In this document: piece after piece, positions 2,373-47,938 of the stretch
Numbering within the stretch: the first letter of the stretch is position 1
Layout of the letters: every line of letters starts with the position of its first letter
Assembly: GCA_902196205.1 (NCBI GenBank)
Contig: CABIKM010000045.1
Location: 1-48,089 of the forward strand
Source: Candidatus Methylomirabilis lanthanidiphila
Lineage (GTDB): Bacteria; Methylomirabilota; Methylomirabilia; Methylomirabilales; Methylomirabilaceae
Reading direction: 5' to 3'
DNA length: 48,089 nt
The notes under the pieces: model-generated
The model's input: only the letters and a program-made list of their open reading frames with translations
The model's database searches: none
What the model was told of the DNA's origin: nothing
Translations under genes and position numbers: made by a program

Positions 2373-2373
2373 A

Positions 2374-3357: not shown

Positions 3358-3745
3358 TAGATTCCTCCTTTTTCTTTGCATTGTCGCCACGCTTCCCGGC
3401 ACGGCTATGAGCGAGTTGCTGATAGTAACCAAGAGCAAACAGACTTTGCCCTTCCAGGTCGAGTGTCCGCGGTAGGCGCTCACCGATATGCCCCATCACT
3501 GCCGCGATCTCGTTCTCGTACCACCAGATGAGGCCCGGTTCGAGCTTGTTCAAGTGGTTCTTGGCGTTCGCTACGAGCCTCCCAATCATGAGGGCGGGCG
3601 CCTGGCTCGTGGCCGTGTAGTACCGCTGCACCACACCGGCGCCCACATCACCCAATGCGGAGCGCTGAAGGCCAGCCAGCACTGCAAGCAGCCGGCCGCA
3701 ATGGTAGGCAGGGTTCGGATGGTCTTCGTTGAGGTACGGACTCAT
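3350..3745 (-). CDS. cas11: Cas11c small subunit made from an internal start in cas8c
   Basis: Inside cas8c and in the same frame, the ATG at 3745-3743 (residue 460 of Cas8c) is preceded by AAAGGAGGTG at 3760-3751 with a 5-nt spacer, an almost ideal Shine-Dalgarno. Translation from here gives a 131-residue, mainly helical protein beginning [12 protein letters not shown] that shares the cas8c stop. Published work on type I-C systems shows that the Cascade small subunit Cas11 is made this way from cas8c. The strength of the signal here, inside a coding region, supports this. Production of the short protein is inferred, not observed. Confidence 0.85.
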
Positions 3746-5122: not shown

Positions 5123-5853
5123 GGCTGCACCTCCCTCGGAGGCTTTCGGACGTCGTGGTTCTCGTAATCGGGGACGTCGAGGACTCCCTTTCGGACCACG
5201 GCGCGGAAAAGGCTTATGCGAGGCAAGTCATATTTGGTTCCTGGCCTGGAGAGGTCAAATACATCGTAGATCATCCATCCAAGGTTCTGGTCCAGCGGGA
5301 ACGGAACGGCGAGGGACTCACCTGATTCGACCGGCCGAAAGTAGGCCGGAAACTCACGGCAGCCGAGGTAAGGCTGGTAGATGCACTGGCCATGGCTGGC
5401 GTGGCGAAGAAACTGGGCGTCCATTCCACGAATCTCGCCCCGATACTCGGACCAAGGCACGATGTACGCGGAGATCCGATAGCGCACCTTTTTGAGCGCC
5501 ATGGTCTGGCGCTGGGTCCGTCCCCTCTGGTCCGTTCCCAGCGAGTCTCGATCGCCGTCAGCCCAAAGGGGTTCTGGTTTTTTCTTCCCCTGCGCCCATT
5601 TGAGGATTGTGTCCGCTGGCGGCACCTTGTCCTTTACCTCGTTGCGCCGCAGAGCGATATAGTGCGGCTCGCTCAGCGTCTCGATCCGCGCCACCTGCCA
5701 GCGGAGCTTTGGCTTCCAATAGATGGCGTCGAAGACGGCCCGAGCAGCGGAGGGTGTCATGATAGGGTAGCTGTATCGCTCCACTTTCATCTCTGGCCGG
5801 GTGAAACACGCAAGGTCACCCCACACTTCCAGCGTGTGTATCTTGCTGTCCAA
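5107..5853 (-). CDS. cas5: Cas5c (Cas5d), crRNA-processing Cascade subunit
   Basis: In type I-C systems Cas5 replaces Cas6: it cuts the repeat hairpin and stays bound to the crRNA 5' handle. The 248-residue protein starts MDSKIHTLEVWGDLACFTRPEMKVE, the standard RAMP N-terminus of the family. Tyr45 in FDAIYWKPK matches by position the catalytic tyrosine described for characterised Cas5d, and a Lys-Lys pair in MALKKVRYRI is the probable partner. It overlaps cas8c by 16 bp and begins 22 bp after cas3. No cas6 is present, which agrees with this role. Confidence 0.95.
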   Translation of the reverse strand: MDSKIHTLEVWGDLACFTRPEMKVERYSYPIMTPSAARAVFDAIYWKPKLRWQVARIETLSEPHYIALRRNEVKDKVPPADTILKWAQGKKKPEPLWADGDRDSLGTDQRGRTQRQTMALKKVRYRISAYIVPWSEYRGEIRGMDAQFLRHASHGQCIYQPYLGCREFPAYFRPVESGESLAVPFPLDQNLGWMIYDVFDLSRPGTKYDLPRISLFRAVVRKGVLDVPDYENHDVRKPPREVQPCSTI

Positions 5854-5875
5854 TTCGCACCTCCTGGTTTGCAGT

Positions 5876-8167
5876 TCAGACCAGCCACACGGGTGGCGCC
5901 TTCGGGGGTGTGAGTCCCGTCAAGGGATCGTAATCTTCCCGACAAACGTACACGAACCAATCGTCAGATACGCCACCACGCCTCAGCGGCAGCGGGGCCA
6001 GGCACTGGCGGATCAAATCCTCTTGTCTTGGCCTGGGGACCGAGACCACAAGCGGCTGGGCTCGACGCATCCAGTCCGCGGAGAGGCCCTTCGTCTGTCC
6101 TTCAGCGGTGAGCGCTTCGTAGTCCTGGATTTGCTCCCTGTAGGGTACGAGGACGCTGATGGAGTCCTGTGCAATGACGTGGTATCGCCGCGCCACCTCC
6201 GGAAAGTCAAAGGCTCGGATCGCATCCTGAAGTTCCCGCCGCAGATCCTCTGGTTTGGCCAGGCTATAGAGCCTCTCATAATATCGCCGGTATAGAGCGG
6301 GGTCCCGGATGTCCATATGGGCAGTACCCAGTTCGGTCAAGAGGCTTTGAGCTACTGAAGCAGCGCGCTCATAGGATCGGTCGGGGAATACCGAATCCTC
6401 CTCCGGGAAGAAGACTACTACCTCTCCGCATGGTCTTCGCCCCTCACGGTTGCACCGCCCAGCCGCCTGCGCGATGGCCTCCAGCGGCCCGAAGGCTCGG
6501 TAAACCGCTGGGAAGTCCACGTCCACCCCTGCCTCGACACATTGCGTGGATACGAGCAGGCAGCGCTCCTCAGCCTCAAGCCGACGGCGCACTGCGGCGA
6601 GGACCGCTTGCCGGTGAGCCGGACACATAGCTGTGGAAAGATGAAATAGAGCGTCCCGCCACTCATCAAAAAGGCGGTAGGCCAGATGCGACGCGTGACG
6701 TTTCAGATTAACGATCACGAGCGCCTGGTCGCGTTTACCTAGCTCCTGGCAAAGGTTATCCCAGCTCGTAGGAACCGGCGGGTCGGGCCACCGCACCTCG
6801 ACACGACGAAGGCACCGAAACAGATTGATCTCTGGCGCAGCGATCTCACGAGGCTGCCAGCCTGGGGCAACCCATTTCCGCACCTCACGATCCAAGTGGT
6901 CGAAAGCGGGCTGAGTGGCTGTGGCGAAGACCACCGTCGTCCGGCAGCGGCTAGAAAGGTGCGAAAGGGCGGCGAGGGTCGGAATCGCCAGGGGCAGTGG
7001 CAGGGTCTGCACCTCGTCAAAAAGGATGACGCTCCCAGCCAGCCTATGCAGCTTTCGGCAAGCAGAGGGTCGATTGGAGAAAAGCGAATCTAGGAATTGG
7101 ACGCTCGTAGTGACCACGATGGGAGCGTCCCAGTTCTCGGCCAGAAGGCGTTCCCAATAGCGCTCTGCAGAGTCGTCTCCCGTTCCCGCCAGACCGCTTG
7201 CCAGACTATGGTGCTCCAGCACGAACGCCTCCGGGAAATCTTCCTGAAACGCACTGCGGTACACCGCTGCTGTTTGCTCGATGATGGTGAGGTACGGGAT
7301 CACGACTACCACTCGCCGAAGGCCGTGCCGCTTGGCGTGGGCCAAGGCAAAGGCAAGCATCGAGAGTGTCTTGCCTGAGCCGGTGGGTGCCGAGAGAGTG
7401 AAAAGTCCGGGCAGTTGGTCCGCGGCAGCAAGACAAGCCCTCCAGAGGTCCTCACGCAACTGAACGACCTGCTGCTCAGCCTTTGAGTCTCGTTGTACGC
7501 TGGCGCGGAATCGTTCCAGGGCGCGCAGAGCGTCCTTCGGATCTAGTGTCGGCCCAGCAGCACGATACCGTTTCCCCTCTTCCGTACCATTGAAGTGAGC
7601 CTCGGTGTCCAGAAAGTCCCCGTCCACGAGCGCTGAGAAAAGAAGCCGCATGTCGAGCATCCAGCCAACGTGATTGTCGCCTGGCATATTGTAAATAAAA
7701 GGCGAGGCTGGACGGGCAGGGTTGAGTTCGTCGCCCTTTAGGCGACCCAGCAGTATGTCGAGCTGCGTTTCTGAGAGCTGCAGCCCCAACGGATGGCTTT
7801 CGGCAAGTCGATCCGGGTCCATCGCCCTTAGAGCGTCCTTGCCCAGCCGCTGAAGACCGATGTGGTGTCCTTGAATCGCCAAGGCTGCGGCGACCGATCG
7901 AGAGTCTCGTAGGGCGGCCCACGCGCCGGCCGACCAGTGGTCAATGCCCTTGGCCTCGCCCCTAAGTCTCGCCTGGAAGATATCGCCGTACTTCCCCAAG
8001 TCGTGGAGCAAACCGGAGAATCGTGCTTCGTCGGCCCACGGAAGCCCCTCGGCGAACTCTGCCGCTAGGCGAGAGACTGAAGCTAAGTGCTCTCGCAGAC
8101 AGTGGCGTCTACCTGACGAATTCGCGGAATGGGCGAACCACTCGTTATTGCTTCCCATGCCTACCAT
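5876..8167 (-). CDS. cas3: Cas3 HD nuclease-helicase (type I-C)
   Basis: Cas3 is recruited to Cascade-bound targets and unwinds and degrades the DNA. The 763-residue protein has an N-terminal HD domain (His27, His55-Asp56 in LLHDLGKYGD, His77 in IDHWSAGA) and then an SF2 helicase with Walker A (APTGSGKT), a DEVQ box (LFDEVQTLP) and motif VI (QAAGRCNREG). All key residues are intact. It is the first gene of the cas operon. The ATG at 8167 (MVGMGSNNEW) and another at 8158 (MGSNNEW) are both possible; neither has a strong ribosome binding site. Confidence 0.96.
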   Translation of the reverse strand: MVGMGSNNEWFAHSANSSGRRHCLREHLASVSRLAAEFAEGLPWADEARFSGLLHDLGKYGDIFQARLRGEAKGIDHWSAGAWAALRDSRSVAAALAIQGHHIGLQRLGKDALRAMDPDRLAESHPLGLQLSETQLDILLGRLKGDELNPARPASPFIYNMPGDNHVGWMLDMRLLFSALVDGDFLDTEAHFNGTEEGKRYRAAGPTLDPKDALRALERFRASVQRDSKAEQQVVQLREDLWRACLAAADQLPGLFTLSAPTGSGKTLSMLAFALAHAKRHGLRRVVVVIPYLTIIEQTAAVYRSAFQEDFPEAFVLEHHSLASGLAGTGDDSAERYWERLLAENWDAPIVVTTSVQFLDSLFSNRPSACRKLHRLAGSVILFDEVQTLPLPLAIPTLAALSHLSSRCRTTVVFATATQPAFDHLDREVRKWVAPGWQPREIAAPEINLFRCLRRVEVRWPDPPVPTSWDNLCQELGKRDQALVIVNLKRHASHLAYRLFDEWRDALFHLSTAMCPAHRQAVLAAVRRRLEAEERCLLVSTQCVEAGVDVDFPAVYRAFGPLEAIAQAAGRCNREGRRPCGEVVVFFPEEDSVFPDRSYERAASVAQSLLTELGTAHMDIRDPALYRRYYERLYSLAKPEDLRRELQDAIRAFDFPEVARRYHVIAQDSISVLVPYREQIQDYEALTAEGQTKGLSADWMRRAQPLVVSVPRPRQEDLIRQCLAPLPLRRGGVSDDWFVYVCREDYDPLTGLTPPKAPPVWLV

Positions 8168-8253: not shown

Positions 8254-8824
8254 TCACCGCGATGATGCGCGGCGCAGCCGCCTTTTCCCATACGCCGCCG
8301 CTTCCTCGACCCGGAAGCCGATCGAGCGCCGGGCCTGCTCAGACGGCGCCATGAGCTGGCGGATGGCCTCGAACAGCGTACGAATGCCCTCATCGTGCCC
8401 AGCGATCTTGCGCTCCAGATCTCCCAGTTTCGCGGCCAATTCCTTGTGGACGGACAGCGTCTCGCGCAGCCGGACGAACGCCCGCATGATGGCGATGTTT
8501 GACCGCAATAGCGTGCTCGCTCTTGAGGATGCTTGAGAGCATCGCTACCCCCTGCTCGGTGAACGCGCTCACGCTGCGAGCGTGCTTGATAGTTGAACAT
8601 GTCACAATTTGTGATATGTCCCGGATCTCCTCGCGGGTCAGGACGACCATGAAATCCGTCGGGAACCGCGCCATATTCCGGCGCACCGCCTGATTGAGCA
8701 CACGGGTTTCCACTCCGTAGAGTGTCGCCAAGTCCCTGTCCAGCATTACTCGTTGTCCCCGGACCAGCACGATCGCCTGCGCGATGCGCTCAGCCGGGAC
8801 GCGCTTCAGTATTGATGTTCTCAA
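8254..8824 (-). pseudogene. ORF6N-domain protein gene, frameshifted
   Basis: ORF6N proteins carry a DNA-binding domain shared with phage anti-repressor-like proteins; their cellular role is not settled. The first part (to about 8500) reads PAERIAQAIVLVRGQRVML, YGVETRVLNQAV and AFTEQGVAMLSSILKSE. The second part, in another frame, reads NIAIMRAFVRLRETLSVHKE and ends RRSIGFRVEEAAAYGKRR. The two join if one base is removed in the TTT run at 8498-8500 (plus strand), so this is a full-length gene broken by a one-base insertion. A TTG at 8824 starts the frame and overlaps the preceding gene's stop. A sequencing error in the short run is possible. Confidence 0.8.
8602..8614. repeat. ORF6N internal palindrome, weakest copy
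   Basis: TCACAA-T-TTGTGA, 6-bp arms, inside the frameshifted ORF6N gene between the DNA-binding part and the AFTEQG motif. It encodes SQIV. The outer symmetry seen in the other copies has been lost. Confidence 0.7.
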
Positions 8825-9207
8825 TGGTCACCTGGCTTCCCGGAGCCCGCGCCCCCGTAGTTGGTCGCGTATCGCTCGTCGCGGACTGGCCGAACATATT
8901 TCAACGCAAGTACGTTCGCTGCCATAATGGCGCCGTGTTCGGTAAATGCATACGGTAAGTACTTAATATTGAGACCTCGTTTCAAGATCACAATTTGTGA
9001 TCTTGATCGTTGGACCGTTTCCGCCTCATCGAGGGTTAGTTGGAAGACAAAGTCCCCTGGGAACTTCTCCGGATTCCGCTTGACCGCCTGATTCAGGACG
9101 CGAGTCTGCACACCGTAGATTTCGGCAAGATCCGCCGCGAGAATCACCCGGTGACCCCGGATGGTCACGATCAGTCCCTCGATCGGAGCGACATCTTGTC
9201 CCATCAT
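8821..9207 (-). CDS. ORF6N-domain protein lacking the C-terminal coiled-coil module
   Basis: This 128-residue protein starts MMGQDVAPIEGLIVTIRGHR and shows the ORF6N pattern DLAEIYGVQTRVLNQAVKRN, then SQIVILKRG and LPYAFTEHGAIMAANVL. The intact copies then continue into VVRAFVRLRE and a coiled coil; this one instead ends after an unrelated tail of about 30 residues. It overlaps the upstream fragment's stop by 4 bp (ATGA at 9207-9204) and the next ORF6N gene's TTG start by 3 bp, so three ORF6N genes form one chain. It may be a working short form or a decayed copy. Confidence 0.65.
   Translation of the reverse strand: MMGQDVAPIEGLIVTIRGHRVILAADLAEIYGVQTRVLNQAVKRNPEKFPGDFVFQLTLDEAETVQRSRSQIVILKRGLNIKYLPYAFTEHGAIMAANVLALKYVRPVRDERYATNYGGAGSGKPGDH
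8982..9006. repeat. ORF6N internal palindrome, 12-bp arms
   Basis: A perfect inverted repeat with left arm TCAAGATCACAA, centre T and a matching right arm. It lies inside an ORF6N gene and is read as SRSQIVIL. Confidence 0.9.
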
Positions 9208-9320
9208 GTCACCTCCCTTTTGGCGGCGCATGGCGTATTCAGCGTGCTCGCCAGCATGATGGGTCCGTGTTCTGTAAAGGCATAGGGAAGGAACCGCGGA
9301 TTCCGGTGCTTCTCGGAACC

Positions 9321-9337
9321 GGTCACACACTGTGACC
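9321..9337. repeat. ORF6N internal palindrome variant, 7-bp arms
   Basis: GGTCACA-CAC-TGTGACC. It is related to the GATCACAA family but has a G/C outer pair. It is read as RSQCVT in the chimeric fragment. Confidence 0.7.
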
Positions 9338-9370
9338 TCCATTCAGCACACTCCTCCAGCCTCGCTTCAT

Positions 9371-9506: not shown

Positions 9507-10193
9507 TCACGTCCGGCGCAGATGGAACCGGTGCGGTCGCGCCCCACAAACGGTCTTGAGAACGGGCGCAGCAAGCGGCGCCCCTACGATCCCCTCCCCC
9601 TCATCCCCACCTTCTCCCCCAAGGGGGCGAAGGGGTCTTCTTTGGGGGCGGCGCCGTCTTCCATATGCCGCCGCAGCCTCCTCGACCCGGAAGCCGATGG
9701 ACCGCGGCGCCTTGTCCGGCGTGGTCATCAGTGCGCGGATGGTGTCGAAGACGATCTTGAACTGCGCGTCGTACTTCTTCTCGATCTCCTCTAGCTTGCG
9801 GGCGAGGTCCTTGTGGGCTCCCAGCACTTCCCGCAGTCGCACGAAGGCCCGGACGACTTGTACGCTGGCCTGAACCGCGATGGGCGTGTTGAGGACGCTC
9901 GCCAGCATGGTTGCCCCGTGCTCGGTGAAGGCATAGGGGAGAGCAGGGGAGAACCTGAGCGGTCGGAGGTGATCACAGTTTGTGATCACCTCTGCCTTCT
10001 CCGCTACCGTCAGACGGAACATGAAATCTTCGGGGAAGCGTTCCGGGTTCCGTTTCACCGCCTGGTTGAGCACCCGTGTTGATACTCCATAGAGGGCTGC
10101 CAGGTCGGCATCCAGCATCACACGTTGGCTGCGGATGGGAAGAATGCGCCGCTCAACGCTTGGCGCCGGACTCAGAGCACCCCGTGAACTCAT
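9507..10193 (-). CDS. ORF6N-domain protein, intact
   Basis: A 228-residue protein with an N-terminal ORF6N domain (SVERRILPIRSQRVMLDADL, LYGVSTRVLNQAVKRNPERF), the palindrome-encoded junction EVITNCDHL, the conserved AFTEHGATMLASVLNTP, then VVRAFVRLREVLGAHKDLAR and a coiled coil ending DTIRALMTTPDKAPRSIGFRVEE. After this family end, the last 50 or so residues are Arg/Gly/Pro-rich and run into a repeated intergenic sequence, which suggests the original stop was lost. ORF6N proteins are predicted DNA-binding proteins common in prophages and genome islands; the function here is unknown. Confidence 0.85.
   Translation of the reverse strand: MSSRGALSPAPSVERRILPIRSQRVMLDADLAALYGVSTRVLNQAVKRNPERFPEDFMFRLTVAEKAEVITNCDHLRPLRFSPALPYAFTEHGATMLASVLNTPIAVQASVQVVRAFVRLREVLGAHKDLARKLEEIEKKYDAQFKIVFDTIRALMTTPDKAPRSIGFRVEEAAAAYGRRRRPQRRPLRPLGGEGGDEGEGIVGAPLAAPVLKTVCGARPHRFHLRRT
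9966..9992. repeat. ORF6N internal palindrome, 12-bp arms
   Basis: Left arm GAGGTGATCACA, centre GTT, matching right arm. The outer five base pairs differ from those of the other copies, yet the symmetry is kept. It is read as EVITNCDHL. Confidence 0.9.
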
Positions 10194-13123: not shown

Positions 13124-13418
13124 CCCCTCACCCGTGCCCTCTCCGCCAGGGGAGAGGGGTGCTGCAAATGAGCAGAGGGAGGGGATTAACCCTTCCCCTG
13201 CGAACGGACTGCTTCCACCCATGACGGTTAGCTTACCACTATCCTGTGACATCCGGGGTCACTTCTCCTCAATCCGGGCGGCCACGGGGGGCCGCCCCTA
13301 CGAGTTACTGACCTGCGGATTACGCCCGGAGCTGGTGGAACCGGCGCGGTCATCGCGGCGCTTTCCTCCGAGGCCGACGTACCCGGTAGCGCGGCTCCGC
13401 CTCCTCGACCCGGAAGCC
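13124..13418. repeat. About 290-bp direct repeat, copy 2
   Basis: This is the partner of 11131-11421. Its right end is the real 3' end of the intact ORF6N gene at 13350-13931, so this copy shows what the repeat unit is: an ORF6N gene end with its downstream sequence. A shorter related stretch is near 9436-9545, downstream of the other intact ORF6N gene. Confidence 0.85.
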
Positions 13419-13931
13419 GATCGAGCGACGCGGCTTGACCGACGTGGTCATCAGTGCGCGGATGGCGTCAAAGACGGCCTTGAACTGAGTGTCGTACTTC
13501 TTCTCGAGGTCATGCAGACGCCGAGCCAGTTCTGCATTGGAGGCAACCATCCGACGCAACCGCACGAATGTCCGCATGATCTCGATGTTCGCGCGCACGG
13601 CCCGAGGACTTCGCAGTACACTCGACAACATGGCGGTCCCATGTTCCGTAAATGCATAGGGCGGATACCGGCGGCCGCCCCATCTTGAGATCACAATTTG
13701 TGATCTCAAGGCATTGAACTCCTCAGGGGTCAGTTCGAAGGCAAAGTCCGGCGGGAAGCGTTCGGCATTCCGCTTGACGGCCTGTATGAGAGCGCGTGTC
13801 TCGACCCCGTAGAGTTCAGCGAGGTCCGCATCAAGCATCACCCGTTCGCCGCGGACCATGAGAATAGAGCGCTCGATGCGTTCGGCGGGCAGGCAGACAT
13901 CTTGCGCGACAGTTACATGCTTTTTCGGCAT
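13350..13931 (-). CDS. ORF6N-domain protein, intact
   Basis: A 193-residue protein with an N-terminal ORF6N domain (PAERIERSILMVRGERVML, AELYGVETRALIQAVKRNAE, PPDFAFELTPEEF), junction LRSQIVISRWGGRRYPP, conserved YAFTEHGTAMLSSVLRSPRA, and a C-terminal coiled coil (IMRTFVRLRRM, LARRLHDLEKKYDTQF). It ends RRSIGFRVEE plus a short basic tail. It is the most complete ORF6N copy in the window. Family members are predicted DNA-binding proteins of phage and mobile-element ancestry. There is no phage gene nearby, so its role is unknown. Confidence 0.88.
   Translation of the reverse strand: MPKKHVTVAQDVCLPAERIERSILMVRGERVMLDADLAELYGVETRALIQAVKRNAERFPPDFAFELTPEEFNALRSQIVISRWGGRRYPPYAFTEHGTAMLSSVLRSPRAVRANIEIMRTFVRLRRMVASNAELARRLHDLEKKYDTQFKAVFDAIRALMTTSVKPRRSIGFRVEEAEPRYRVRRPRRKAPR
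13684..13710. repeat. ORF6N internal palindrome, 13-bp arms
   Basis: Left arm CTTGAGATCACAA, centre T, matching right arm: the longest copy. It is read as LRSQIVISR. Confidence 0.92.
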
Positions 13932-38274: not shown

Positions 38275-38334
38275 ATGTTCCGTGTGGCGGTACTCCCGCT
38301 GATACCTACCAATAACGGAGGCAGATACGGATGA
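38275..38334 (+). CDS. Possible 19-residue leader peptide before the multicopper oxidase
   Basis: An ATG at 38275 with CTGGAGG 5 bp upstream opens a 19-codon frame (MFRVAVLPLIPTNNGGRYG) whose TGA overlaps the oxidase ATG by 4 bp (ATGA). Such spacing is typical of translational coupling. The peptide has no known relatives that I recognise, and the same GGAGG near 38317 also serves the oxidase. It may be chance. Confidence 0.3.
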   Translation: MFRVAVLPLIPTNNGGRYG

Positions 38335-40712
38335 ATGAGATGAGTATCAAAGATCATTTGCTGGTACGAGGTCAGAGGATCGGCCTCGTGTTGCTCGTCA
38401 TGTTGTTGGCGGCGCTCGGGACTGCCTTCCCCGTCTCGGCGGCCAAAAGTCCCCAGCTTCCGCTCGATGCCGGAACCATCCCGCAGTTTGCACAGCCGCT
38501 GCCGCTGCTCAGTATCGGCGGAGACGGCACGAGCGGCATCGCGACCTTCGGCGGGATCGGACCGACGGAGATCCACATCTGTGAGTTCGATGCGAAGGTG
38601 CTGCCGTCGGGTACACCAGGCGTAACGGCCAATACCCGTTCGTGGGGATATGTGTATGGGACTACCTGTCCGGCGCCGTCCGATCCGACCTATACGCGTG
38701 ACAGCTTTATCGGTCCGGTGCTCGTGGCCATTCGTGACATGGGGACCCAACTGAAACTGGTGAACGACCTTCCAAGCGCCCATGATACCGGCGTGCTGGC
38801 ATACAAGTATTCCGTCGATCAGACGGTCCACTGGGCCGATCCGCTGAACGCTGAGGCCGACGACTGCCATCATGCCGCACTGATGGGAGAGATCCCAGCC
38901 TTTGGCAGTGATTGCTCCAAGAACTATGCGGAAGTCTCCTCACCGCTTAATCCGACTATCCCGGCCGCTCTCCACCTGCACGGCGGCCTCGTCCCACCGG
39001 AACTGGACGGCGGTCCGGATGCCTGGGTGACGAGCACCGGTATCAAGGGCCATGGCTACTACACCTCTCCTTCTCCCGATCCGATCCCGAGCAACGGGTT
39101 TGTCTACAACTATCCCAACCGCCAGGAAGCGTCGGCGTTAATCTTTCACGATCACGTTCTGGGCAACCTGCGCCTGAACCTCTATGCGGGGATTGCGTCC
39201 GCGTACGTGATTGAAGATCCCGCCATCATCCGGACCGATGCGACCGGGGTGTGGGTCAGTACGGCCATCGCCCCCCTCGCTTCCTGTGAATCGGCTTCAA
39301 AGAAATGCCTGCCGAAGAACCTTCCGGGCTCTGCCGAAATTGTCCCGATCGTCATCCAGGACCGCATCTTCGACACGAACGGACAGTTGCTCTGGCCTGC
39401 CGACAGCATTCGCGGGGTCCAGTTGAGCCCGAATCCCGAGCATCCCTACTGGGTTCCGGATTTCTTCGGCGACACCATCGTGGTCAACGGCAAGGCGTGG
39501 CCGTATCTCGATGTCCAGCCCAAGCGCTACCGGTTCCTTTTTATCAACGCGTCTCACTCTCGTATCTACGACCTGAAGCTGGGCGTGCCGATGTGGATTA
39601 TCGCGACCGACGGCGGATATCTGGATAAACCGGTCAAGGTCGACCATCTGCCCATCACCTCCGGCGAGCGCTATGAGGTGATCATCGATTTTGCCGGGAA
39701 GGCCGGGCAAAACCTGATCCTCGCCAATACCGCCGCAGCGCCCTATCCGGACGGGACGTCGCCGAATCCCGCGACGCTGGGCCGGGTCATGCAGTTTCGC
39801 ATCCAGACGCCGGGAACGCCTGTCGTTGACGCCAGCTACGACCCGGCCTCCGGTACGCCGCTGCGGCCGGAAAAGAACGAGCTCGTGCGCCTGGTCAAGC
39901 CCAAGAAGGGCAAGCTGGCCGTGAAAAAGAAGCAGGTCGCAGCGACCCGCCAGCTTGTCTTTAACGATGTGAACGGCCCGGCCCAGAACGCCGTCAACCC
40001 GGTGACCGGCGAATTGACGGCATACCCCGGAGGGCGGCTGGAGATCCTGTCCAACAATACCAAGTGGTCCGGTGAATCGAGCAGGACCTATGGCGATTTT
40101 ACCCCGGTGCCGCTTGGCGGAGTCACGAACTACTACTCGGAGTTCAATGGGGAGGGTACTATCGAGGTTGTAGAGTTTGTCAACTTGACCAGCGTGTCGC
40201 ACGCCCAACACCTGCACGGGACCACATTCCAGGTTCTCAATCGACAGAACCTTAATAAGGGCGCCTATGTGGCGGCCTACAATACGGCGTTTCCGGGAGG
40301 AAGCTTCATTGCCGGCTTCGGCCCGCCCTTGAACTACAATCCATCCGATGCCTCCGGCAGGAAGTACGGCGGCAATCCCGATGTCAAACCGTTCCTGCAA
40401 GGCTCCGTGATTCCGCCGCGGCCTGAAGAGGCGGGATGGAAGGATACCGTCATCGTCCTCCCCGACCAGGTGACCCGGGTGGCCGTACGCTATGCGCCCA
40501 CCGATATCCCGGTAAAAGCTAAAGCGGAGGAGTTGTACTTTCCCTTTGATCCCAGCGGGGGTTCCGTTGGCGGGGAGCGGTACGGTTTCGTCGATCATTG
40601 TCACATGACCGAACACGAAGACAACGAGATGATGCGGCCCAGCCTGATCAATTTGAATCCGAGTGCGCCGGTACCGGGGGACAGGCTGCTGAAGAAGGGC
40701 GTCGACTACTGA
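38331..40712 (+). CDS. Secreted multicopper oxidase
   Basis: A 793-residue multicopper oxidase with a signal peptide (GLVLLVMLLAALGTAFPVSA). All four copper-binding motifs are seen: LHLHGGLVPPELDGG (about residue 215), LIFHDHVLGNLRL (about 273), SHAQHLHGTTFQVL (about 623) and VDHCHMTEHEDNEMM (about 755); the last has Cys, His and Met for the type 1 copper. It should oxidise a substrate outside the cytoplasm and reduce O2 to water. It is larger than CueO or CotA. A Lys-rich insert (VKPKKGKLAVKKKQ) is near 525. Substrate (metal ion or organic) cannot be told. Confidence 0.9.
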   Translation: MNEMSIKDHLLVRGQRIGLVLLVMLLAALGTAFPVSAAKSPQLPLDAGTIPQFAQPLPLLSIGGDGTSGIATFGGIGPTEIHICEFDAKVLPSGTPGVTANTRSWGYVYGTTCPAPSDPTYTRDSFIGPVLVAIRDMGTQLKLVNDLPSAHDTGVLAYKYSVDQTVHWADPLNAEADDCHHAALMGEIPAFGSDCSKNYAEVSSPLNPTIPAALHLHGGLVPPELDGGPDAWVTSTGIKGHGYYTSPSPDPIPSNGFVYNYPNRQEASALIFHDHVLGNLRLNLYAGIASAYVIEDPAIIRTDATGVWVSTAIAPLASCESASKKCLPKNLPGSAEIVPIVIQDRIFDTNGQLLWPADSIRGVQLSPNPEHPYWVPDFFGDTIVVNGKAWPYLDVQPKRYRFLFINASHSRIYDLKLGVPMWIIATDGGYLDKPVKVDHLPITSGERYEVIIDFAGKAGQNLILANTAAAPYPDGTSPNPATLGRVMQFRIQTPGTPVVDASYDPASGTPLRPEKNELVRLVKPKKGKLAVKKKQVAATRQLVFNDVNGPAQNAVNPVTGELTAYPGGRLEILSNNTKWSGESSRTYGDFTPVPLGGVTNYYSEFNGEGTIEVVEFVNLTSVSHAQHLHGTTFQVLNRQNLNKGAYVAAYNTAFPGGSFIAGFGPPLNYNPSDASGRKYGGNPDVKPFLQGSVIPPRPEEAGWKDTVIVLPDQVTRVAVRYAPTDIPVKAKAEELYFPFDPSGGSVGGERYGFVDHCHMTEHEDNEMMRPSLINLNPSAPVPGDRLLKKGVDY

Positions 40713-40808
40713 TGCTGCATCCGGTTGTCCGTGCCGATCACATCATGCTCGGGAAGGCTACGACGATCAGGACTACAGCTAATCTACTGGGATAAGGAGC
40801 GCCAGCCT

Positions 40809-43313
40809 ATGAAGCGGTTATCAATCTATCTCGCAGTGGCCATAGGGATCTTAATTGGGAACGATGCCTACGCGACCTCCGTTCAGACGCACGAGCCGGC
40901 CACGATCTTTGCTCGTGCCTGCGCGAGCTGCCATGGCGCAAAGGGTCTCGGTGGGGTGTCGTGGGTAAAGAACGATCCGGCGGATCAAAGGGTTGCGCCC
41001 CAGATCGCGGGCTACACCGCCGACACCGTCAAAGCGATGGTAAGAAGAGGGGCGGACAATGCGGCCATGCCGGCATTCGGCGTTCAGGAGATTACGGATG
41101 CCGAATTAGATGCGCTGGCGGCCTTCATACAAAATAACGCCAGCGGCGTGCCGACGCCGGCCAAACCGGGTGGGAAAGAGGTTGCCCTGTACATCTTAGA
41201 TGCCGACCCGTGGTTTACGGATCGCGGTGAGGACAATTCAGCCGATCCATTCAACGATGTACGACGGGTCGTGCTGCGGCCGGATCAATACCTGAAGGTC
41301 GTCAATACCGGCCGGACCTGGCACGCCTTTACCAATACCGCCTTGGGCAAGGACTCGGGGTTTATCGGCTATGCCGGCAACTACAAGAAGAAGAAAGGGG
41401 ATCTTGATCGGAAGGTGAAGGCTGGAAAAGGTTTCTATTACGCCGATCAGACATCCGGCCTGACACCCGGCTGCAACAAATACATCTGTAAGATCCACCC
41501 CTACATGACCGTTGAGATCTGTACCGCCGGCAGTACACCGAAAGGCCCCAACGATGACTTCGGTCTGACGCGGGCCCATAAGCAACCCTTAGGGCCTCCG
41601 CCGGTTCCCGGCAACGGTGACGAGGTCTGGGTCAGCACCCAGAGTCAGGAGGAGGTGGGCGAAAAAACCACGAAAATCAAAAAGAAGTCGGTCGAGGACT
41701 TCGATGGGGCCTATCAGGTCATCAATACCGCCAACTGGAATGTGACCCGCATCCCCAACGTGGGCAACAACCCGCATAATGCCTGGCCGGGTCACACCGC
41801 GACGCGAGATATCGTGATCTCTACCAACTGGCATGACAATCGCCTTTCATTGATGGATGCGAACACCAAGACGCTTGTCAGCCAGTTCCGCTCAGGCGCT
41901 ACCAACGCCCACGTGATGGTGGCGCCTGGTCCCGACAACCGCGACGCCTGGTTTGTGACTCATATGGGTGGAACTGCCGCGGCGGCCATCAGCGCCGAGT
42001 TGCTTGAAGCGGGGCAAGATCCCAACATCGGCCTCTTACCGGGCGCACCTGGACCACACGGCCTATGGTTCTGTGATGACGAGTACCATTTCATCGTTGC
42101 GGATACCTTTAATAACTCGACCTCCATGTACGATGTCGACTTCGGCAATCTGGCCATCACCGCGACCGGCGGAACGATCCCCTTGGCGACCGGCCTGCAA
42201 AACGGCTTCGGCGCCGGAGGGTGCGCGAGGGGTGTCGCGGCGAATGCCGGGACCGCCGACCTCTCCATCTACGATATCGATTCCACCTTCGGATTTGAGC
42301 AATTGGACCGCAACACGACGTGGCTGCCAGCACCGACCAACGGGCTGCACAAGAACGGAGCCGACAACCTGGCGGTCAGAGTGACCGATCCGGGAGCCGA
42401 TCTGGCGACGCCGCACCCGCTGTTGCCGGCCGGTGAGACAATTCAGCAGAAACGATGGGCGAACATGCCGATCCAAAGTCCGATCAGTCCCCCGGATGCC
42501 ACGACCCATGGCCGCTTCATGGTCACCGCCAACAAGGCCAGCTTCAATGTGTTGATTACCGGCCTGAATTCCGCCACCGGACTGCCTTGGGGTAGCTTCA
42601 TGGTCCCGGCCGGCCTCGGCGCCCACGGGGTCACCTTCGGCAAGAAGAGCCGATGCGATACGAACCATGATGGCGTAGAGGACACAGATGCCCACTATCC
42701 GGACGTGGTCTGCTATTACGCCTACGTCACGAACACCTTTGAGGATTATGTCGGCGTCTATGACCTGGAGAAGGTCGACCTGAATAACGACCAGGTGGAC
42801 AATAACCCGTCGGACGTGGGAATGCAGAAGCCGGGCTCGGCCCTATTGGCTGAGCGCATCTACCTCGAAGGCGGGGCGGTGAAGGCAGTCACTACGCTTG
42901 ATCCGGGTGTGGCCACGCTCTGTGGTTCTGAACTGGATTGCGGTGTGGGACCGACCGGTGGGACCTACATCTCCAATCTGCCGATCGGGGTGCTGTGCCC
43001 CGATTGCAGCAGCGGCGTGCATGTGGGCGATATTCCCTTGACGTTGACCACCGGTGCGCCGTTGGCCGGTCCGGCCGGTGACGTGACAAATACTGGCGCC
43101 AAATCGAAGTACGCCTATCTTAAAGAGCCGGTATGGGTCGATACAATGACGGTTGGATGCGCCTTAGCGGCTAATAACTGTGATAATACCCCATTCGAAG
43201 GAACAGAAGTGGGGAACCTGAATACGGAAGTCACCCTCGATCTGGAGCTTGGGACGAACACCGGCGCTCAGGGGATTGTGGCACGACCTGCTTCAGCGCC
43301 GTGGACGCCGTAG
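40809..43313 (+). CDS. Secreted cytochrome c - cupredoxin - beta-propeller protein
   Basis: An 834-residue exported protein with a signal peptide (MKRLSIYLAVAIGILIGNDA). A class I cytochrome c follows, with heme motif CASCH (Cys38, Cys41, His42) and probable axial Met87. Next is a cupredoxin-like domain (about 120-245) with WHAFTN and YICKIHPYM, giving His, Cys, His and Met copper ligands. The rest has NTANWNVTRIPNVG, DIVISTNWHDNRLSLMD and LPWGSFMVPAGLGAHGVTFG, fitting a beta-propeller. The start at 40809 follows AAGGAGC. It is 96 bp after the multicopper oxidase gene, so it probably supplies or takes electrons from it. Confidence 0.8.
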   Translation: MKRLSIYLAVAIGILIGNDAYATSVQTHEPATIFARACASCHGAKGLGGVSWVKNDPADQRVAPQIAGYTADTVKAMVRRGADNAAMPAFGVQEITDAELDALAAFIQNNASGVPTPAKPGGKEVALYILDADPWFTDRGEDNSADPFNDVRRVVLRPDQYLKVVNTGRTWHAFTNTALGKDSGFIGYAGNYKKKKGDLDRKVKAGKGFYYADQTSGLTPGCNKYICKIHPYMTVEICTAGSTPKGPNDDFGLTRAHKQPLGPPPVPGNGDEVWVSTQSQEEVGEKTTKIKKKSVEDFDGAYQVINTANWNVTRIPNVGNNPHNAWPGHTATRDIVISTNWHDNRLSLMDANTKTLVSQFRSGATNAHVMVAPGPDNRDAWFVTHMGGTAAAAISAELLEAGQDPNIGLLPGAPGPHGLWFCDDEYHFIVADTFNNSTSMYDVDFGNLAITATGGTIPLATGLQNGFGAGGCARGVAANAGTADLSIYDIDSTFGFEQLDRNTTWLPAPTNGLHKNGADNLAVRVTDPGADLATPHPLLPAGETIQQKRWANMPIQSPISPPDATTHGRFMVTANKASFNVLITGLNSATGLPWGSFMVPAGLGAHGVTFGKKSRCDTNHDGVEDTDAHYPDVVCYYAYVTNTFEDYVGVYDLEKVDLNNDQVDNNPSDVGMQKPGSALLAERIYLEGGAVKAVTTLDPGVATLCGSELDCGVGPTGGTYISNLPIGVLCPDCSSGVHVGDIPLTLTTGAPLAGPAGDVTNTGAKSKYAYLKEPVWVDTMTVGCALAANNCDNTPFEGTEVGNLNTEVTLDLELGTNTGAQGIVARPASAPWTP

Positions 43314-43337
43314 ACCTTCCATTAGGGGCCTGTCATG

Positions 43338-43376
43338 ATGAGGAGGGGATGATGCCTATCCCCTCCTCATTTTTTT
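43338..43376 (+). terminator. Rho-independent terminator after the copper-protein genes
   Basis: A perfect 13-bp stem, ATGAGGAGGGGAT and its complement at 43358-43370, with a GATGCCT loop and seven T residues directly after. It starts 25 bp after the stop and ends the oxidase/cytochrome operon. Confidence 0.97.
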
Positions 43377-43560: not shown

Positions 43561-44052
43561 ATGGCGAAGGTCCTCAGTATTATCCCCGAACGATGCACCG
43601 CCTGCCGGGCCTGTGAGTTAGCCTGCTCGGTCAAGCACTACGGCGAGTTCAATCCCAGCCGATCGCGAATCAAGGTCAGCATCTTCCTTGAAGAAGCGGT
43701 CTACATCCCCACCGCCTGCACTCAGTGTACTGAGGCTTGGTGTGCAAAGATCTGCCCCACCACCGCCATCCTTCGCAACGACGACTACATGGCATACTAC
43801 GTGGTCGACGATAAGTGCGTCGGCTGTAAGATGTGTGTTGTGGCCTGTCCGTTCGGGGCGATAGAGCTGTATGCCGACCACAGCAAGGCCGAGAAGTGTG
43901 ATCTCTGCCTCTCGATCGACGGCGATCCGGAGTGTGTGAAGTTCTGTACGCCGAAGGCGTTGCTCTTCACCGATGAGGACGAAGGTCCCAAGGCCAAGCA
44001 GGTGGCGACCGCCGCTCGGCTGAAGGAGGCATTGCAGGAGGCGGCAGGCTGA
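43561..44052 (+). CDS. aorA: Ferredoxin-like subunit of aldehyde oxidoreductase
   Basis: A 163-residue iron-sulfur protein with four Cys clusters: CTACRACELACS, CTQCTEAWCAKICP, CVGCKMCVVACP and CDLCLSIDGDPECVKFCTP, enough for four [4Fe-4S] centres. It resembles the AorA electron-transfer subunit that accompanies tungsten aldehyde oxidoreductases in AorABC-type complexes. The stop of this gene overlaps the start of the AOR gene by one base (TGATG), and GGAGG precedes its ATG. It would carry electrons from the tungsten subunit to the FAD subunit. Confidence 0.88.
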   Translation: MAKVLSIIPERCTACRACELACSVKHYGEFNPSRSRIKVSIFLEEAVYIPTACTQCTEAWCAKICPTTAILRNDDYMAYYVVDDKCVGCKMCVVACPFGAIELYADHSKAEKCDLCLSIDGDPECVKFCTPKALLFTDEDEGPKAKQVATAARLKEALQEAAG

Positions 44053-45863
44053 TGGGCTGGACCGGGACAGTTCTCAGAATCAATTTGAGTAGCGGCCGCG
44101 TGGCGAAGGAGCCGCTGGACCGACAGCTCGCCAGAGCCTATATCGGCGGTCGCGGTCTGGCAACGAAGATCCTGTACGATGAGATCGATCCAACGCTCGA
44201 TCCGCTTGGACCGGCCAACACACTGATCCTCGCCACAGGCCCGCTTACGGGTACCAACGCCCCGACCGGCGGCCGGTATATGGTGGTGACCAAGTCGCCG
44301 CTCACCGGCGCCATCGCCTGCTCCAACTCCGGGGGGTATGTCGGCGCGGAGATGAAGTACGCCGGCTACGACCTGGTGATTGTGGAGGGGAAGGCGCCGC
44401 ATCCGGTCTACCTCTGGGTCAACAACGACCGAGTGGAGATACGGGACGCCGCCCAGGTCTGGGGACAGTCCACTCACAAGACTGAAGATATCCTGCGTAG
44501 CGCCACCAACGCCGAGGCCAAGATCTGCAGCATCGGCCCGGCTGGTGAGACGCTGAGCCTGACCGCCGCCGTGATGAACGACAAGCACCGGGCCGCAGGC
44601 CGCTCCGGGGTGGGCGCGGTAATGGGATCGAAAAACCTGAAGGCCGTCGTCTTCCGGGGCGCTGGGCCGGTCAAGGTCGCGCACCCGCAGGCATTCATGC
44701 GGGCCTGCCTGGAGGCCGTGGCGAAGCTTCAGGCAGATCCGGGTTCGGGAGAGGGCCTGCCGATGTACGGGACGCCAGGGATCGTAAACGTCATCAACGC
44801 TCATGGCTTCATCCCGACCAACAACTTCCGATTCGGCCAGTTTGCCGGCGCCGACCGGATCAGCGGTGAGACCATCCATGACCAGATCCTGATCCGGAAC
44901 AAGGGCTGCTTTGCCTGCACCATCGCGTGTGCGCGGGTGACCGAGGTTAAGACCGGAAAGTTCAAGGGGTCGGGCGAGGGGCCGGAGTACGAGACCGTCT
45001 GGGCTCTTGGCGCGATGACCGGTGTCAGCGATCTTGGGGCGGTCACCAAGGCCGGCTACCTGTGCAATGAGCTGGGGATGGATACCATCGAGGCGGGGGT
45101 GGCCATCGCCACCGCCATGGAGCTGTTCGAGGCCGGTTACATCCCGGAGCGCGAGATCGGTCGCCCGCTACGATTCGGCGATGCCGATGCGCTGGTGGAG
45201 ATGACGGAAAAGCTGGGCAGGGGCGAGGGATTCGGCGCAATGCTTGCGCTGGGCGGCTCGCGGCTCGCCGAGCGGTACGGCCACCCTGAGTTGTTCATGG
45301 GGGTCAAACGACAGGCGTTCGCCGCCTACGACGGGCGCGGGGCGCAAGGGATGGCGCTGGGGTACGCGACCTCCAACCGGGGCGCCTGCCACCTGCGCGG
45401 TTACACCATCGCGGCCGAGGTGTTCGGCGTTCCGCAGAAGGTGGATCCGTTCGCCATCGAGGGGAAGGCGGCGCTGGCCAAGGCGTCCCAGGACGCCACC
45501 GCCTTCGTCGATTCCACCGGCACCTGCATCTTCACAACGTTTGCCCTGGGACCTGCCGATCTGCACGCTATGCTGGAGCTGGCGACGGACGCCGGCTATA
45601 CGGAGGACGAGGTAGTCAAGATCGGCGAGCGGATCTGGAACTTGGAGCGCCTCTTTAACCTCAGGGCCGGCCTCAGCGCCAAAGACGACACCCTGCCTCG
45701 CCGCATCCTGAAAGAGCCGATTCCGGCAGGACCGGCCAAGGGAAAGGTCGCTCGCCTCGGCGAGATGCTGCCCGAGTACTACGCGCTTCGCGGCTGGACG
45801 CCGGAAGGCGTCCCAACCCCCGAGAAGCTGAAGGAACTGGCCCTCTTGGAGAACAGGGTTTAG
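44052..45863 (+). CDS. aorB: Tungsten aldehyde ferredoxin oxidoreductase, large subunit
   Basis: A 603-residue member of the AOR family, which oxidises aldehydes to acids with a tungsto-bispterin cofactor. The N-terminal pterin domain has GRVAKEPLDRQLARAYIGGR and LATGPLTGTNAPTGGRYMVV. The [4Fe-4S] ligands are KGCFACTIAC (about residues 285-292) and a Cys in STGTCIFTTFA (about 490). The length is standard. It is coupled to the ferredoxin gene and followed by MoaD and FAD-oxidoreductase genes, so it is probably an NAD-linked AorABC-type complex rather than a simple ferredoxin-dependent enzyme. Substrate aldehydes cannot be deduced. Confidence 0.95.
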   Translation: MGWTGTVLRINLSSGRVAKEPLDRQLARAYIGGRGLATKILYDEIDPTLDPLGPANTLILATGPLTGTNAPTGGRYMVVTKSPLTGAIACSNSGGYVGAEMKYAGYDLVIVEGKAPHPVYLWVNNDRVEIRDAAQVWGQSTHKTEDILRSATNAEAKICSIGPAGETLSLTAAVMNDKHRAAGRSGVGAVMGSKNLKAVVFRGAGPVKVAHPQAFMRACLEAVAKLQADPGSGEGLPMYGTPGIVNVINAHGFIPTNNFRFGQFAGADRISGETIHDQILIRNKGCFACTIACARVTEVKTGKFKGSGEGPEYETVWALGAMTGVSDLGAVTKAGYLCNELGMDTIEAGVAIATAMELFEAGYIPEREIGRPLRFGDADALVEMTEKLGRGEGFGAMLALGGSRLAERYGHPELFMGVKRQAFAAYDGRGAQGMALGYATSNRGACHLRGYTIAAEVFGVPQKVDPFAIEGKAALAKASQDATAFVDSTGTCIFTTFALGPADLHAMLELATDAGYTEDEVVKIGERIWNLERLFNLRAGLSAKDDTLPRRILKEPIPAGPAKGKVARLGEMLPEYYALRGWTPEGVPTPEKLKELALLENRV

Positions 45864-45973
45864 GGTCCAGGGGTTAGGGTCTAGGGTTCAAACAAGAAAT
45901 GCGAGAGATGCTACCTTGAGCACCTTCGGTTCTACCCCATACCCCATATCCCAAACTCTGCATCCCATTGCCT

Positions 45974-46255
45974 ATGCCTGAAGTCAGATTCCTTGGCGCT
46001 GTCCGGCAGGCTGCAGGAAAGTCATCGTTCGGGATCGATGCCGGTACGGTGGAGCAGATCCTGGAGGCGCTGAACCGTGTCACGAGTCCCGCGTGCCGGG
46101 AGTTCCTGTTTGAAGGGGACAGGCTCAGGCAGGATGTCGAGGTCCTGGTGAACGACCGAAACATCACATCGCTCGATGGAGTCAAGACCGCCCTCGCGCC
46201 CTTCGACCAGGTCACCCTATTCATCAAGGGGACTCGAGGGCTCTCCGCTGGGTAG
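45974..46255 (+). CDS. MoaD/ThiS-like ubiquitin-fold protein
   Basis: A 93-residue beta-grasp protein: MPEVRFLGAVRQAAGKSSFG, VEVLVNDRNITSLDGVKTAL, FDQVTLFIKGTRGLSAG. MoaD carries sulfur to molybdopterin through a C-terminal Gly-Gly. This protein ends Ser-Ala-Gly, without the di-glycine. It is in the cluster of the tungsten enzyme, where a pterin sulfur carrier makes sense. The start at 45974 is the ATG giving the family N-terminus. A short repeat-like stretch (GGGTCCAGGGGTTAGGG) precedes it at 45863. Confidence 0.8.
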   Translation: MPEVRFLGAVRQAAGKSSFGIDAGTVEQILEALNRVTSPACREFLFEGDRLRQDVEVLVNDRNITSLDGVKTALAPFDQVTLFIKGTRGLSAG

Positions 46256-46277
46256 TTGTTAGCAGATTCTTTTTCTA

Positions 46278-46305
46278 AAAACTCAAAACTCAAAACTCAA
46301 AACTC
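46278..46305. repeat. Tandem repeat of AAAACTC, four units
   Basis: Four perfect 7-bp copies lie between the first MoaD-like gene and the FAD oxidoreductase gene, ending 15 bp before its ATG. It is a short tandem repeat of unknown role and may vary in copy number between strains. Confidence 0.95.
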
Positions 46306-46320
46306 AACACTATCGCGGAC

Positions 46321-47586
46321 ATGAGCAAACAACATCACGTCATCATCGGAGCGAGCGCAGCCGGTCTCGCGGCCGTCGAAGCGATCCGAAAAGTCGATAA
46401 GGACTGCCCGATCACGGTCGTCTCGAAGGAGCCGTTGCCGCTCTATTCGCGGGTTGGCCTCACGCACTTTATCGCCCGAGAGGTCGGCTACGATGGGATG
46501 CGGATGCGGGACGACGACTACTTCGACCGGATGAAGGTGCGTGGGCTGATGGGGGTGGCCGCCCTCTCCGTCGATCCCACCGCGCGCCGTATCGCGCTGA
46601 GCAACGGCGAGAACGTGGCTTACGATAACCTGCTCGTCACGTCGGGATCTCACGCTGTCATGCCACCGATTCCTGGGACGAATCTCCAAAGCATCTATAC
46701 CTGCATCACCAACGTCGATGCGAAACGGATCGACGAGGCGATTGCGGGAGCCAACGAGGTCGCCGTGATCGGCGCCGGTCTGATCGGGATTCAGGTGGTC
46801 GATGCGCTCATCCGCCGCGGTTGCAAGACCACCGTCATCGAACAGATGCCGCACGTGATGCCGGCTATGGCCGATGCGGTCTCGGCTGCGATGATGGAAG
46901 ATGAGCTTCGGAAAGCCGGGGTGACGGTCAGGTGCGGCGTCAGGGCGACGGAGCTTTTGGGCAAGGATAGTCACATCACCGGCGTGAAGGTTGAAGGTGG
47001 CGAGGTGTTTCCATGCCAGCTTCTGGTGATGGCGGCCGGCGTCGCGCCCAACGTCGATTTCCTGAATGGAACCGGCGTAAAAATGAACCGCGGGCTGGCG
47101 GTGGATGCCTGTCAGCGGACCAGTCTGGACGGGATCTATGCGGCTGGCGATGTCGCCGAGACCGTCGATATGTTCAGCGGCGAGCGAGTCGTCAACGCCA
47201 TCTGGCCGGAGGCGCTCAACCAGGGGCGGATCGCCGGGCTGAACATGGCCGGTGTCGCTACGCCGTACGAGGGGTCGATGGCGATGAATGTGACCTCGGT
47301 CCTGCAGACCCCGGTGGCGTCGATCGGCGCATGGAATCCACAGTCCGGTGGGCGGTATCAGATCCGGGAGGTCCGCGATGACCGGAGACAGACCTGCCGC
47401 AAGCTGGTCTTCGATGGGGAACAGCTCGTGGGCGCGATGCTGGTGGGGACCTTCGAGGACGCCGGCATCCTTCACAACATGATCCGAACCCGGAAAACAT
47501 TTACCTTGAAGCCGGACCATCTGGCGCCGGCCACCGTCCGTTGGGGAACGGTACTGCGAGCCATCCACAAGGCCGGCAGGGTCTGA
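46321..47586 (+). CDS. aorC: FAD/NAD oxidoreductase of the aldehyde oxidoreductase cluster
   Basis: A 421-residue pyridine-nucleotide-disulfide-oxidoreductase fold protein. The FAD-binding motif is HHVIIGASAAGLAAVEAIRK, the NAD-binding motif VAVIGAGLIGIQVVDALIRR, and the second FAD contact is TSLDGIYAAGDVAE. No active-site disulfide Cys pair is seen, so it resembles NADH-oxidoreductase subunits such as AorC or nitrite reductase-type flavoproteins. It would transfer electrons from the AOR ferredoxin subunit to NAD(P). It lies in the aor cluster and its only ribosome-binding candidate is weak. Confidence 0.88.
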   Translation: MSKQHHVIIGASAAGLAAVEAIRKVDKDCPITVVSKEPLPLYSRVGLTHFIAREVGYDGMRMRDDDYFDRMKVRGLMGVAALSVDPTARRIALSNGENVAYDNLLVTSGSHAVMPPIPGTNLQSIYTCITNVDAKRIDEAIAGANEVAVIGAGLIGIQVVDALIRRGCKTTVIEQMPHVMPAMADAVSAAMMEDELRKAGVTVRCGVRATELLGKDSHITGVKVEGGEVFPCQLLVMAAGVAPNVDFLNGTGVKMNRGLAVDACQRTSLDGIYAAGDVAETVDMFSGERVVNAIWPEALNQGRIAGLNMAGVATPYEGSMAMNVTSVLQTPVASIGAWNPQSGGRYQIREVRDDRRQTCRKLVFDGEQLVGAMLVGTFEDAGILHNMIRTRKTFTLKPDHLAPATVRWGTVLRAIHKAGRV

Positions 47587-47689
47587 CGCGTTTCGTGATG
47601 CGGTTCAGTTATCCCGAATACGCGCCTATCGAGTCTATTGCGTCCATTGCGTTCCTGGACTCCGGCGGCCATGACGGAGTGTTGAGCCC

Positions 47690-47938
47690 ATGAAGGTCGA
47701 GGTGTCGCTGTACGGGACGCTTGCCCGGTATCTACCGAAAGGGACTCAGGGCCACACAACCACTGTGGAGTGTCCCGATGGCGTAACGGTCGGGCAGGTG
47801 ATCGACCAGCTTGGCATCCCGAAGCCATACCCCACGATGGTCCTCATCAACGGCATCCACGCCGACCTAGACACTCCGCTGAAAGAAGGCGATCTCCTTG
47901 CCCTGTTCCCGCCCCTGGCCGGCGGCTGCTACACATGA
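47690..47938 (+). CDS. MoaD/ThiS-like protein with residues beyond the di-glycine
   Basis: An 82-residue beta-grasp protein: MKVEVSLYGTLARYLPKGTQ, PDGVTVGQVIDQLGIPKPYP, MVLINGIHADLDTPLKEGDL, LALFPPLAGGCYT. It has the Gly-Gly expected of a sulfur carrier, but three residues (Cys-Tyr-Thr) follow it. MoaD-like proteins in AOR clusters sometimes have such tails, which would need removal before activation. It is the last gene of the aor cluster, 103 bp after the FAD subunit. Confidence 0.85.
   Translation: MKVEVSLYGTLARYLPKGTQGHTTTVECPDGVTVGQVIDQLGIPKPYPTMVLINGIHADLDTPLKEGDLLALFPPLAGGCYT

Follow-up and report, generated by a model that had tools for sequence, protein, structure and literature searches.

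A CotA-type multicopper oxidase and a cytochrome c–cupredoxin–propeller protein form a two-gene unit in Methylomirabilis

Nitrous oxide reductase, in its NosZ and L-NosZ (NF052460) forms, joins a seven-bladed propeller with a seven-His CuZ site on its inner blades to a cupredoxin fold that carries CuA (two Cys, two His, Met), all in one chain. Propeller, amicyanin-type copper and class I cytochrome c modules also come together in the methylamine dehydrogenase–amicyanin–cytochrome c551i complex. The cytochrome cd1 nitrite reductase NirS and its relative NirN begin with heme c, which is followed by a propeller, and a genuine NirS is encoded elsewhere in the M. lanthanidiphila genome (PMC6094997). 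Carotenoid and stilbene cleavage oxygenases are 4-His-Fe seven-bladed propellers (PMC6097328), and the beta subunit of hydrazine synthase (5c2v_B) is a YVTN propeller. In the CotA laccase/bilirubin oxidase (BOD) group of multicopper oxidases, Mn(II) is a substrate of the B. pumilus CotA (PMC3618234).

Here we describe a locus of Candidatus Methylomirabilis lanthanidiphila that shares modules with all of these systems. The window, meaning the whole stretch of DNA that was analysed (48,089 nt), is an entire contig (C45, CABIKM010000045.1) of a 3.05 Mb genome in 90 contigs, whose close relatives are Methylomirabilis. A multicopper oxidase (MCO) gene is followed after 96 nt by a gene for a cytochrome c–cupredoxin–propeller protein (CCP), with no terminator-like site on the + strand within the gap, and an intrinsic terminator closes the unit (Table 1). 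The open reading frames and their signals thus confirm a first-pass annotation, made from the sequence letters, that had noted two large exported redox proteins ended by a strong terminator. The program-made frame of CCP opens at a TTG (40725); because the downstream ATG has an AAGGAG Shine-Dalgarno sequence and a signal peptide, we set the start there. The literature that was searched contained no description of the MCO–CCP pair.

Table 1. Features of the MCO–CCP unit (positions in the window).
Feature	Position	Strand	Details
CotA/bilirubin-oxidase-type multicopper oxidase (MCO)	38331..40712	+	793 aa; Sec-type signal peptide; T1/T2/T3 copper ligands complete
Cytochrome c–cupredoxin–YVTN propeller protein (CCP)	40809..43313	+	ATG start; 834 aa; exported
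CCP signal peptide	40809..40877	+	MKRLSIYLAVAIGILIGNDAYA
CCP class I cytochrome c domain (predicted)	40878..41144	+	CASCH, residues 38-42; Pfam PF13442 7.6e-13, PF00034 8.8e-8
CCP type-1 copper cupredoxin domain (predicted)	41169..41528	+	ligand codons H172 (41322), C227 (41487), H230 (41496), M233 (41505)
CCP YVTN-type propeller (predicted)	41601..42878	+	seven blades by homology; family-invariant His323 (41775), His368 (41910), His417 (42057), His606 (42624), Glu272 (41622)
CCP C-terminal extension	42879..43310	+	paired Cys; fold not assigned; mostly absent from heme-less relatives
Intrinsic terminator closing the unit	43337..43371	+	15-bp stem and T-run; -28.1 kcal/mol, z = -3.7

The copper ligands of MCO are H215/H217 (HLHG), H273/H275 (HDH), H624/H627/H629 and H756/C757/H758/H762/M767 (HCHxxxHxxxxM, with M767 axial); these ten His, one Cys and axial Met are invariant across nine aligned homologues. 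Among solved structures, CotA laccase is the closest to it (E = 1.8e-55). MCO has every copper ligand of the CotA laccase/bilirubin oxidase group, its nearest solved relatives, and differs from it in size (793 aa vs 513), in long extra loops and in having CCP as a partner. Because its scores lie far under the NCBIfam cut-offs for PhsA, CueO (88 vs 525 bits) and CopA (34.5 vs 478.95 bits), we assign it to the CotA/BOD/PhsA group and to none of the named equivalogs; the same scores led us to reject a CueO/CopA copper-resistance oxidase. By ligand set and homology MCO is an oxidase of CotA/BOD type, which may act on phenols, bilirubin or Mn(II).

CCP had been described as combining heme, a type 1-like copper site (His, Cys, His, Met) and a probable propeller in one chain, in the order opposite to nitrous oxide reductase, and both the composition and the inverted order (heme c, type-1 copper, propeller) were borne out. 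Pfam, and phmmer run on the PDB, pick up the heme domain alone; this domain contains CXXCH, scores 49 bits against a PF13442 cut-off of 27 and qualifies as a class I cytochrome c, the axial Met being likely that of NAAMPAFG. The evidence for the remaining two domains comes from relatives. Pfam and model searches gave no cupredoxin match for the CCP chain alone, and the domain is supported by the family alignment, whose profile matches amicyanin and pseudoazurin and so makes it amicyanin/pseudoazurin-like. For the propeller, the family profile matches 1l0q at 2.9e-36, and CCP has homology to clear YVTN relatives at 1.8e-21.

Structure prediction, which the first-pass annotation had proposed as a check of copper and heme geometry, was informative for a relative and not for CCP itself, whose model (pLDDT 45) is of too low confidence for geometry or for counting blades; with this low-confidence model, Foldseek returned YVTN, NirS and NosZ propellers. 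The model of the relative (L022; pLDDT 80.4, pTM 0.82, from a 13-row alignment) has a cupredoxin at residues 63-159 and then seven blades, and its Foldseek neighbours are 1l0q, hydrazine synthase beta, YncE and a designed seven-bladed protein. The predicted propeller fold of the second half of CCP is thus supported by the family profile, by YVTN homology and by the confident model of this relative.

In 388 genomes searched with the family profile, full-length cupredoxin-propeller proteins number about a dozen; all belong to Methylomirabilota and, CCP apart, have no heme. There was none in the 293 sampled genomes outside this phylum. What is new here is that CCP represents the branch with heme in a cupredoxin-propeller family that is phylum-limited in the sample. 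The 13 aligned members have a mean column identity of about 35%, and the four copper ligands, H323/H368/H417/H606 and Glu272 are invariant. In the L022 model the corresponding four His lie on the inner strands of blades 2, 3, 4 and 7 and the Glu on blade 1, and we consider the four His of the CCP propeller a possible metal site. This ring, the wider family and its genomic contexts go beyond the first-pass annotation.

The ring could also be structural, since some stand-alone YVTN propellers have His at these positions. Distant YVTN propellers found with the same profile have His at the four columns in 4/5, 9/22, 12/31 and 8/17 aligned cases, which is a partial null for the ring; at the general GxxPx[GA] position, His occurs in 9/135. 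Two stand-alone propellers (L040, L041) have the same His pattern as the cupredoxin-propeller family. The sharing of the pattern with some stand-alone propellers implies that the ring is a trait of a YVTN subgroup and predates the heme fusion.

The likeness to NosZ raises the possibility that CCP is a diverged NosZ-like enzyme with inverted domain order, filling the place of the missing Methylomirabilis N2O reductase, with MCO unrelated to it. N2O reductase is not known in Methylomirabilis genomes (PMC6094997), and profile-profile alignment of the family with eight NosZ sequences gave 94% probability over 125 columns, with the blade-4 His falling on the NosZ SPHG ligand; at the two NosZ ligand positions that follow, the CCP family lacks His. 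One relative (L027) has a CuA-like domain with a weak match to the L-NosZ model, and NosL is confined to the genomes that carry CCP sequence, other than one with a remnant (G000, G024, G033 and G034, not G025). Against this, CCP has four ring His rather than the seven of CuZ, type-1 copper ligands rather than CuA and an extra heme c, and it matches neither the NosZ nor the L-NosZ model at E<=10; the 700-bit cut-off of NF052460 was exceeded in 0/195 genomes. Clade membership accounts equally well for the NosL co-occurrence, and none of the nos structural genes lies at the NosL loci. We therefore rejected CCP as a NosZ or L-NosZ and NosL as the sign of a hidden N2O reductase, and regard a diverged NosZ-like enzyme as very improbable.

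Some neighbouring observations concern the same folds. The NosL copper-chaperone genes (L114:8700-10554, L115, L116, L117 and L118) lie beside transporter-type genes. The L027 protein (L027:7621-9453, - strand) carries in one chain an extra CuA-like domain in front of a type-1 cupredoxin and a four-His propeller. At two further loci (L119:2547-5677 and L120:2900-5690), a stand-alone YVTN propeller that shares this His pattern lies near a CuA-like cupredoxin that matches the NosZ C-terminus; the propeller scores 131 bits against the L-NosZ model, under the cut-off of 700, and the two may form a split N2OR-like pair.

Comparison with the other propeller systems places CCP apart from each. It has the three modules of the methylamine dehydrogenase–amicyanin–cytochrome c551i complex, but in a single chain and with no TTQ/CTQ small-subunit candidate among ORFs >=80 aa around the pair. 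NirS and NirN, Foldseek neighbours of CCP, share the N-terminal heme c followed by a propeller, a likeness of fold only; CCP has a cupredoxin in between, and seven blades in the family model. The carotenoid and stilbene cleavage oxygenases also have four conserved His on a seven-bladed propeller, whereas CCP is an exported redox protein with heme and copper and gave no carotenoid cleavage oxygenase Pfam match at E<=1. Hydrazine synthase beta is the second-best solved YVTN propeller for the family; its chain is without a cupredoxin, and it has no sequence match to CCP alone.

The reading we tentatively prefer, at a probability a little short of even, is that MCO and CCP make up an extracytoplasmic redox chain of two proteins, with electrons passing from CCP to MCO and on to O2. 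Electrons would enter CCP from a small reduced substrate or a metal ion, perhaps at the four-His site at the propeller mouth, and would move through the type-1 copper of CCP to its class I heme c and thence to the CotA-like MCO. MCO would reduce O2, made from NO in these intra-aerobic bacteria, to water, and part of the flow might reach the cytochrome c pool. We infer the metal occupancy of the ring, the direct transfer between CCP and MCO, its direction and the substrate. Class I cytochromes and amicyanin-type copper have potentials of about +0.25 V and the type-1 copper of CotA one of about +0.5 V, which favours transfer from CCP to MCO. The adjacency of the two genes on the same strand, the single terminator, their co-conservation under purifying selection, the complete copper ligands of MCO and the invariance of the type-1 ligands and ring His in the family all count for the chain, although neighbouring genes are no proof of electron transfer between their products. 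O2 production and the presence of terminal oxidases in the organism (PMC6094997) count for it too.

Alternatively, MCO may be a metal or phenol oxidase, acting on Mn(II), Fe(II) or Cu(I) in detoxification or mineral formation, with CCP as a carrier to the periplasmic cytochrome c pool and the propeller as a docking or substrate-binding scaffold without a metal of its own. The homology of MCO to CotA, and the Mn(II) oxidation by B. pumilus CotA (PMC3618234), fit such a role, as do the frequent use of propellers for docking and the inner-ring His of other YVTN proteins. Multicopper oxidases, however, reduce O2 directly and can do without a carrier. A scaffold would not call for four His that stay invariant, on the same blades, in members as divergent as these, and MCO, with 10 Met in 793 aa, has no obvious Met-rich metal-binding insert. 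We consider this role somewhat unlikely. The suggestion in the first-pass annotation of an extracytoplasmic oxidation system, for example for a metal ion, is plausible as far as the chain is concerned; metal oxidation by the system is possible by analogy, with the generic support of CotA.

The genomic contexts of the relatives argue for a role in electron transfer or as a redox enzyme. At L062 (in G025), a cupredoxin-propeller gene is followed by another BOD/CotA-like MCO, amid genes that differ from those at the CCP locus, and this counts for the preferred chain. The operons at L026 and L058 encode a NarG/DMSO-reductase-type-II-like alpha subunit, a NarH-like beta subunit, a NarJ-like chaperone and diheme cytochromes, and L025 adjoins genes for a Rieske protein, cytochrome b and a multi-cytochrome c protein. 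The NarGHJ/NXR-like operons with cupredoxin-propellers span L026:7746-16989 and L058:2368-13999, the latter with an ethylbenzene-dehydrogenase-domain cytochrome.

We then consider the distribution of the pair among 95 Methylomirabilota genomes. Full-length CCP occurs in M. lanthanidiphila (G000), G033 and M. oxyfera (G024; 2,752,854 bp, one contig), MCO orthologues are found in these three genomes alone, and the gene order MltD-MCO-CCP is kept in 3/3. G025 has a CCP remnant (residues 214-459) and no orthologue of MCO, with the MltD-CutA-DnaK neighbours still present, and G034 has the CCP tail (residues 770-834), cut at a contig end. The conservation of the pair that the first-pass annotation had called for thus holds in three intact Methylomirabilis genomes and is limited to this genus; most Methylomirabilis genomes are without the pair, which makes it accessory. 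No further gene with a heme-plus-cupredoxin N-terminus was found in the 95 genomes, and a plasmid search gave no match to CCP. The dN/dS values of MCO (0.08-0.18) and CCP (0.08-0.10), with MltD higher at 0.22-0.24, indicate real, constrained genes under purifying selection.

Co-conservation in one genus is partly shared descent, and the two proteins may have unconnected functions, MCO as a laccase-like oxidase and CCP in electron transfer or at the surface, with their genes kept side by side in this way. There are just three intact genomes, from a single genus and with upstream genes in common, and elsewhere, other phyla included, there are long-type MCOs with 37-40% full-length identity that have no CCP neighbour. 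Separate roles are nevertheless unlikely, given the single terminator, the joint decay in G025 and the second cupredoxin-propeller/MCO neighbourhood with different genes at L062. This joint decay is as expected if each protein is useless without the other.

A broader proposal, which we regard as improbable, is that the family would be a new class of periplasmic oxidoreductases, wired through copper, in which the four His of blades 2, 3, 4 and 7 hold a metal centre. CCP would then be the branch of this class that carries heme and is coupled to an oxidase, and in nitrite-dependent methanotrophs it would turn over a small inorganic compound. Should the ring hold a redox metal, active site, type-1 copper and heme c would form an unbroken wire within a single chain, leading to a dedicated O2-reducing enzyme; these bacteria produce oxygen themselves, and little is known of the electron flow in their periplasm. 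Even without a ring metal, MCO–CCP is a conserved two-gene unit of nitrite-dependent methane-eating bacteria, and CCP leads to an unnamed cupredoxin-propeller family, with key residues named, that recurs beside respiratory enzymes in Methylomirabilota.

The rest of the window holds other recognisable loci. Directly after the terminator lies an AOR cluster (43561-47938, + strand) encoding a ferredoxin, an aldehyde ferredoxin oxidoreductase, two MoaD/ThiS-like proteins and a PadH-like flavin oxidoreductase. The contig starts with a Type I-C CRISPR-Cas locus (3-174 and 646-8167, - strand), with repeats GTTTCAATCCACGCCCCCGCGCGGGGGGCGAC at 66 nt spacing and cas3, cas5d, csd1, cas7, cas4 and cas1. 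Four separate ORF6N-domain genes (8390-8824, 8821-9342, 9507-10193 and 13350-13931, - strand) lie within the 6 kb adjoining the CRISPR locus.
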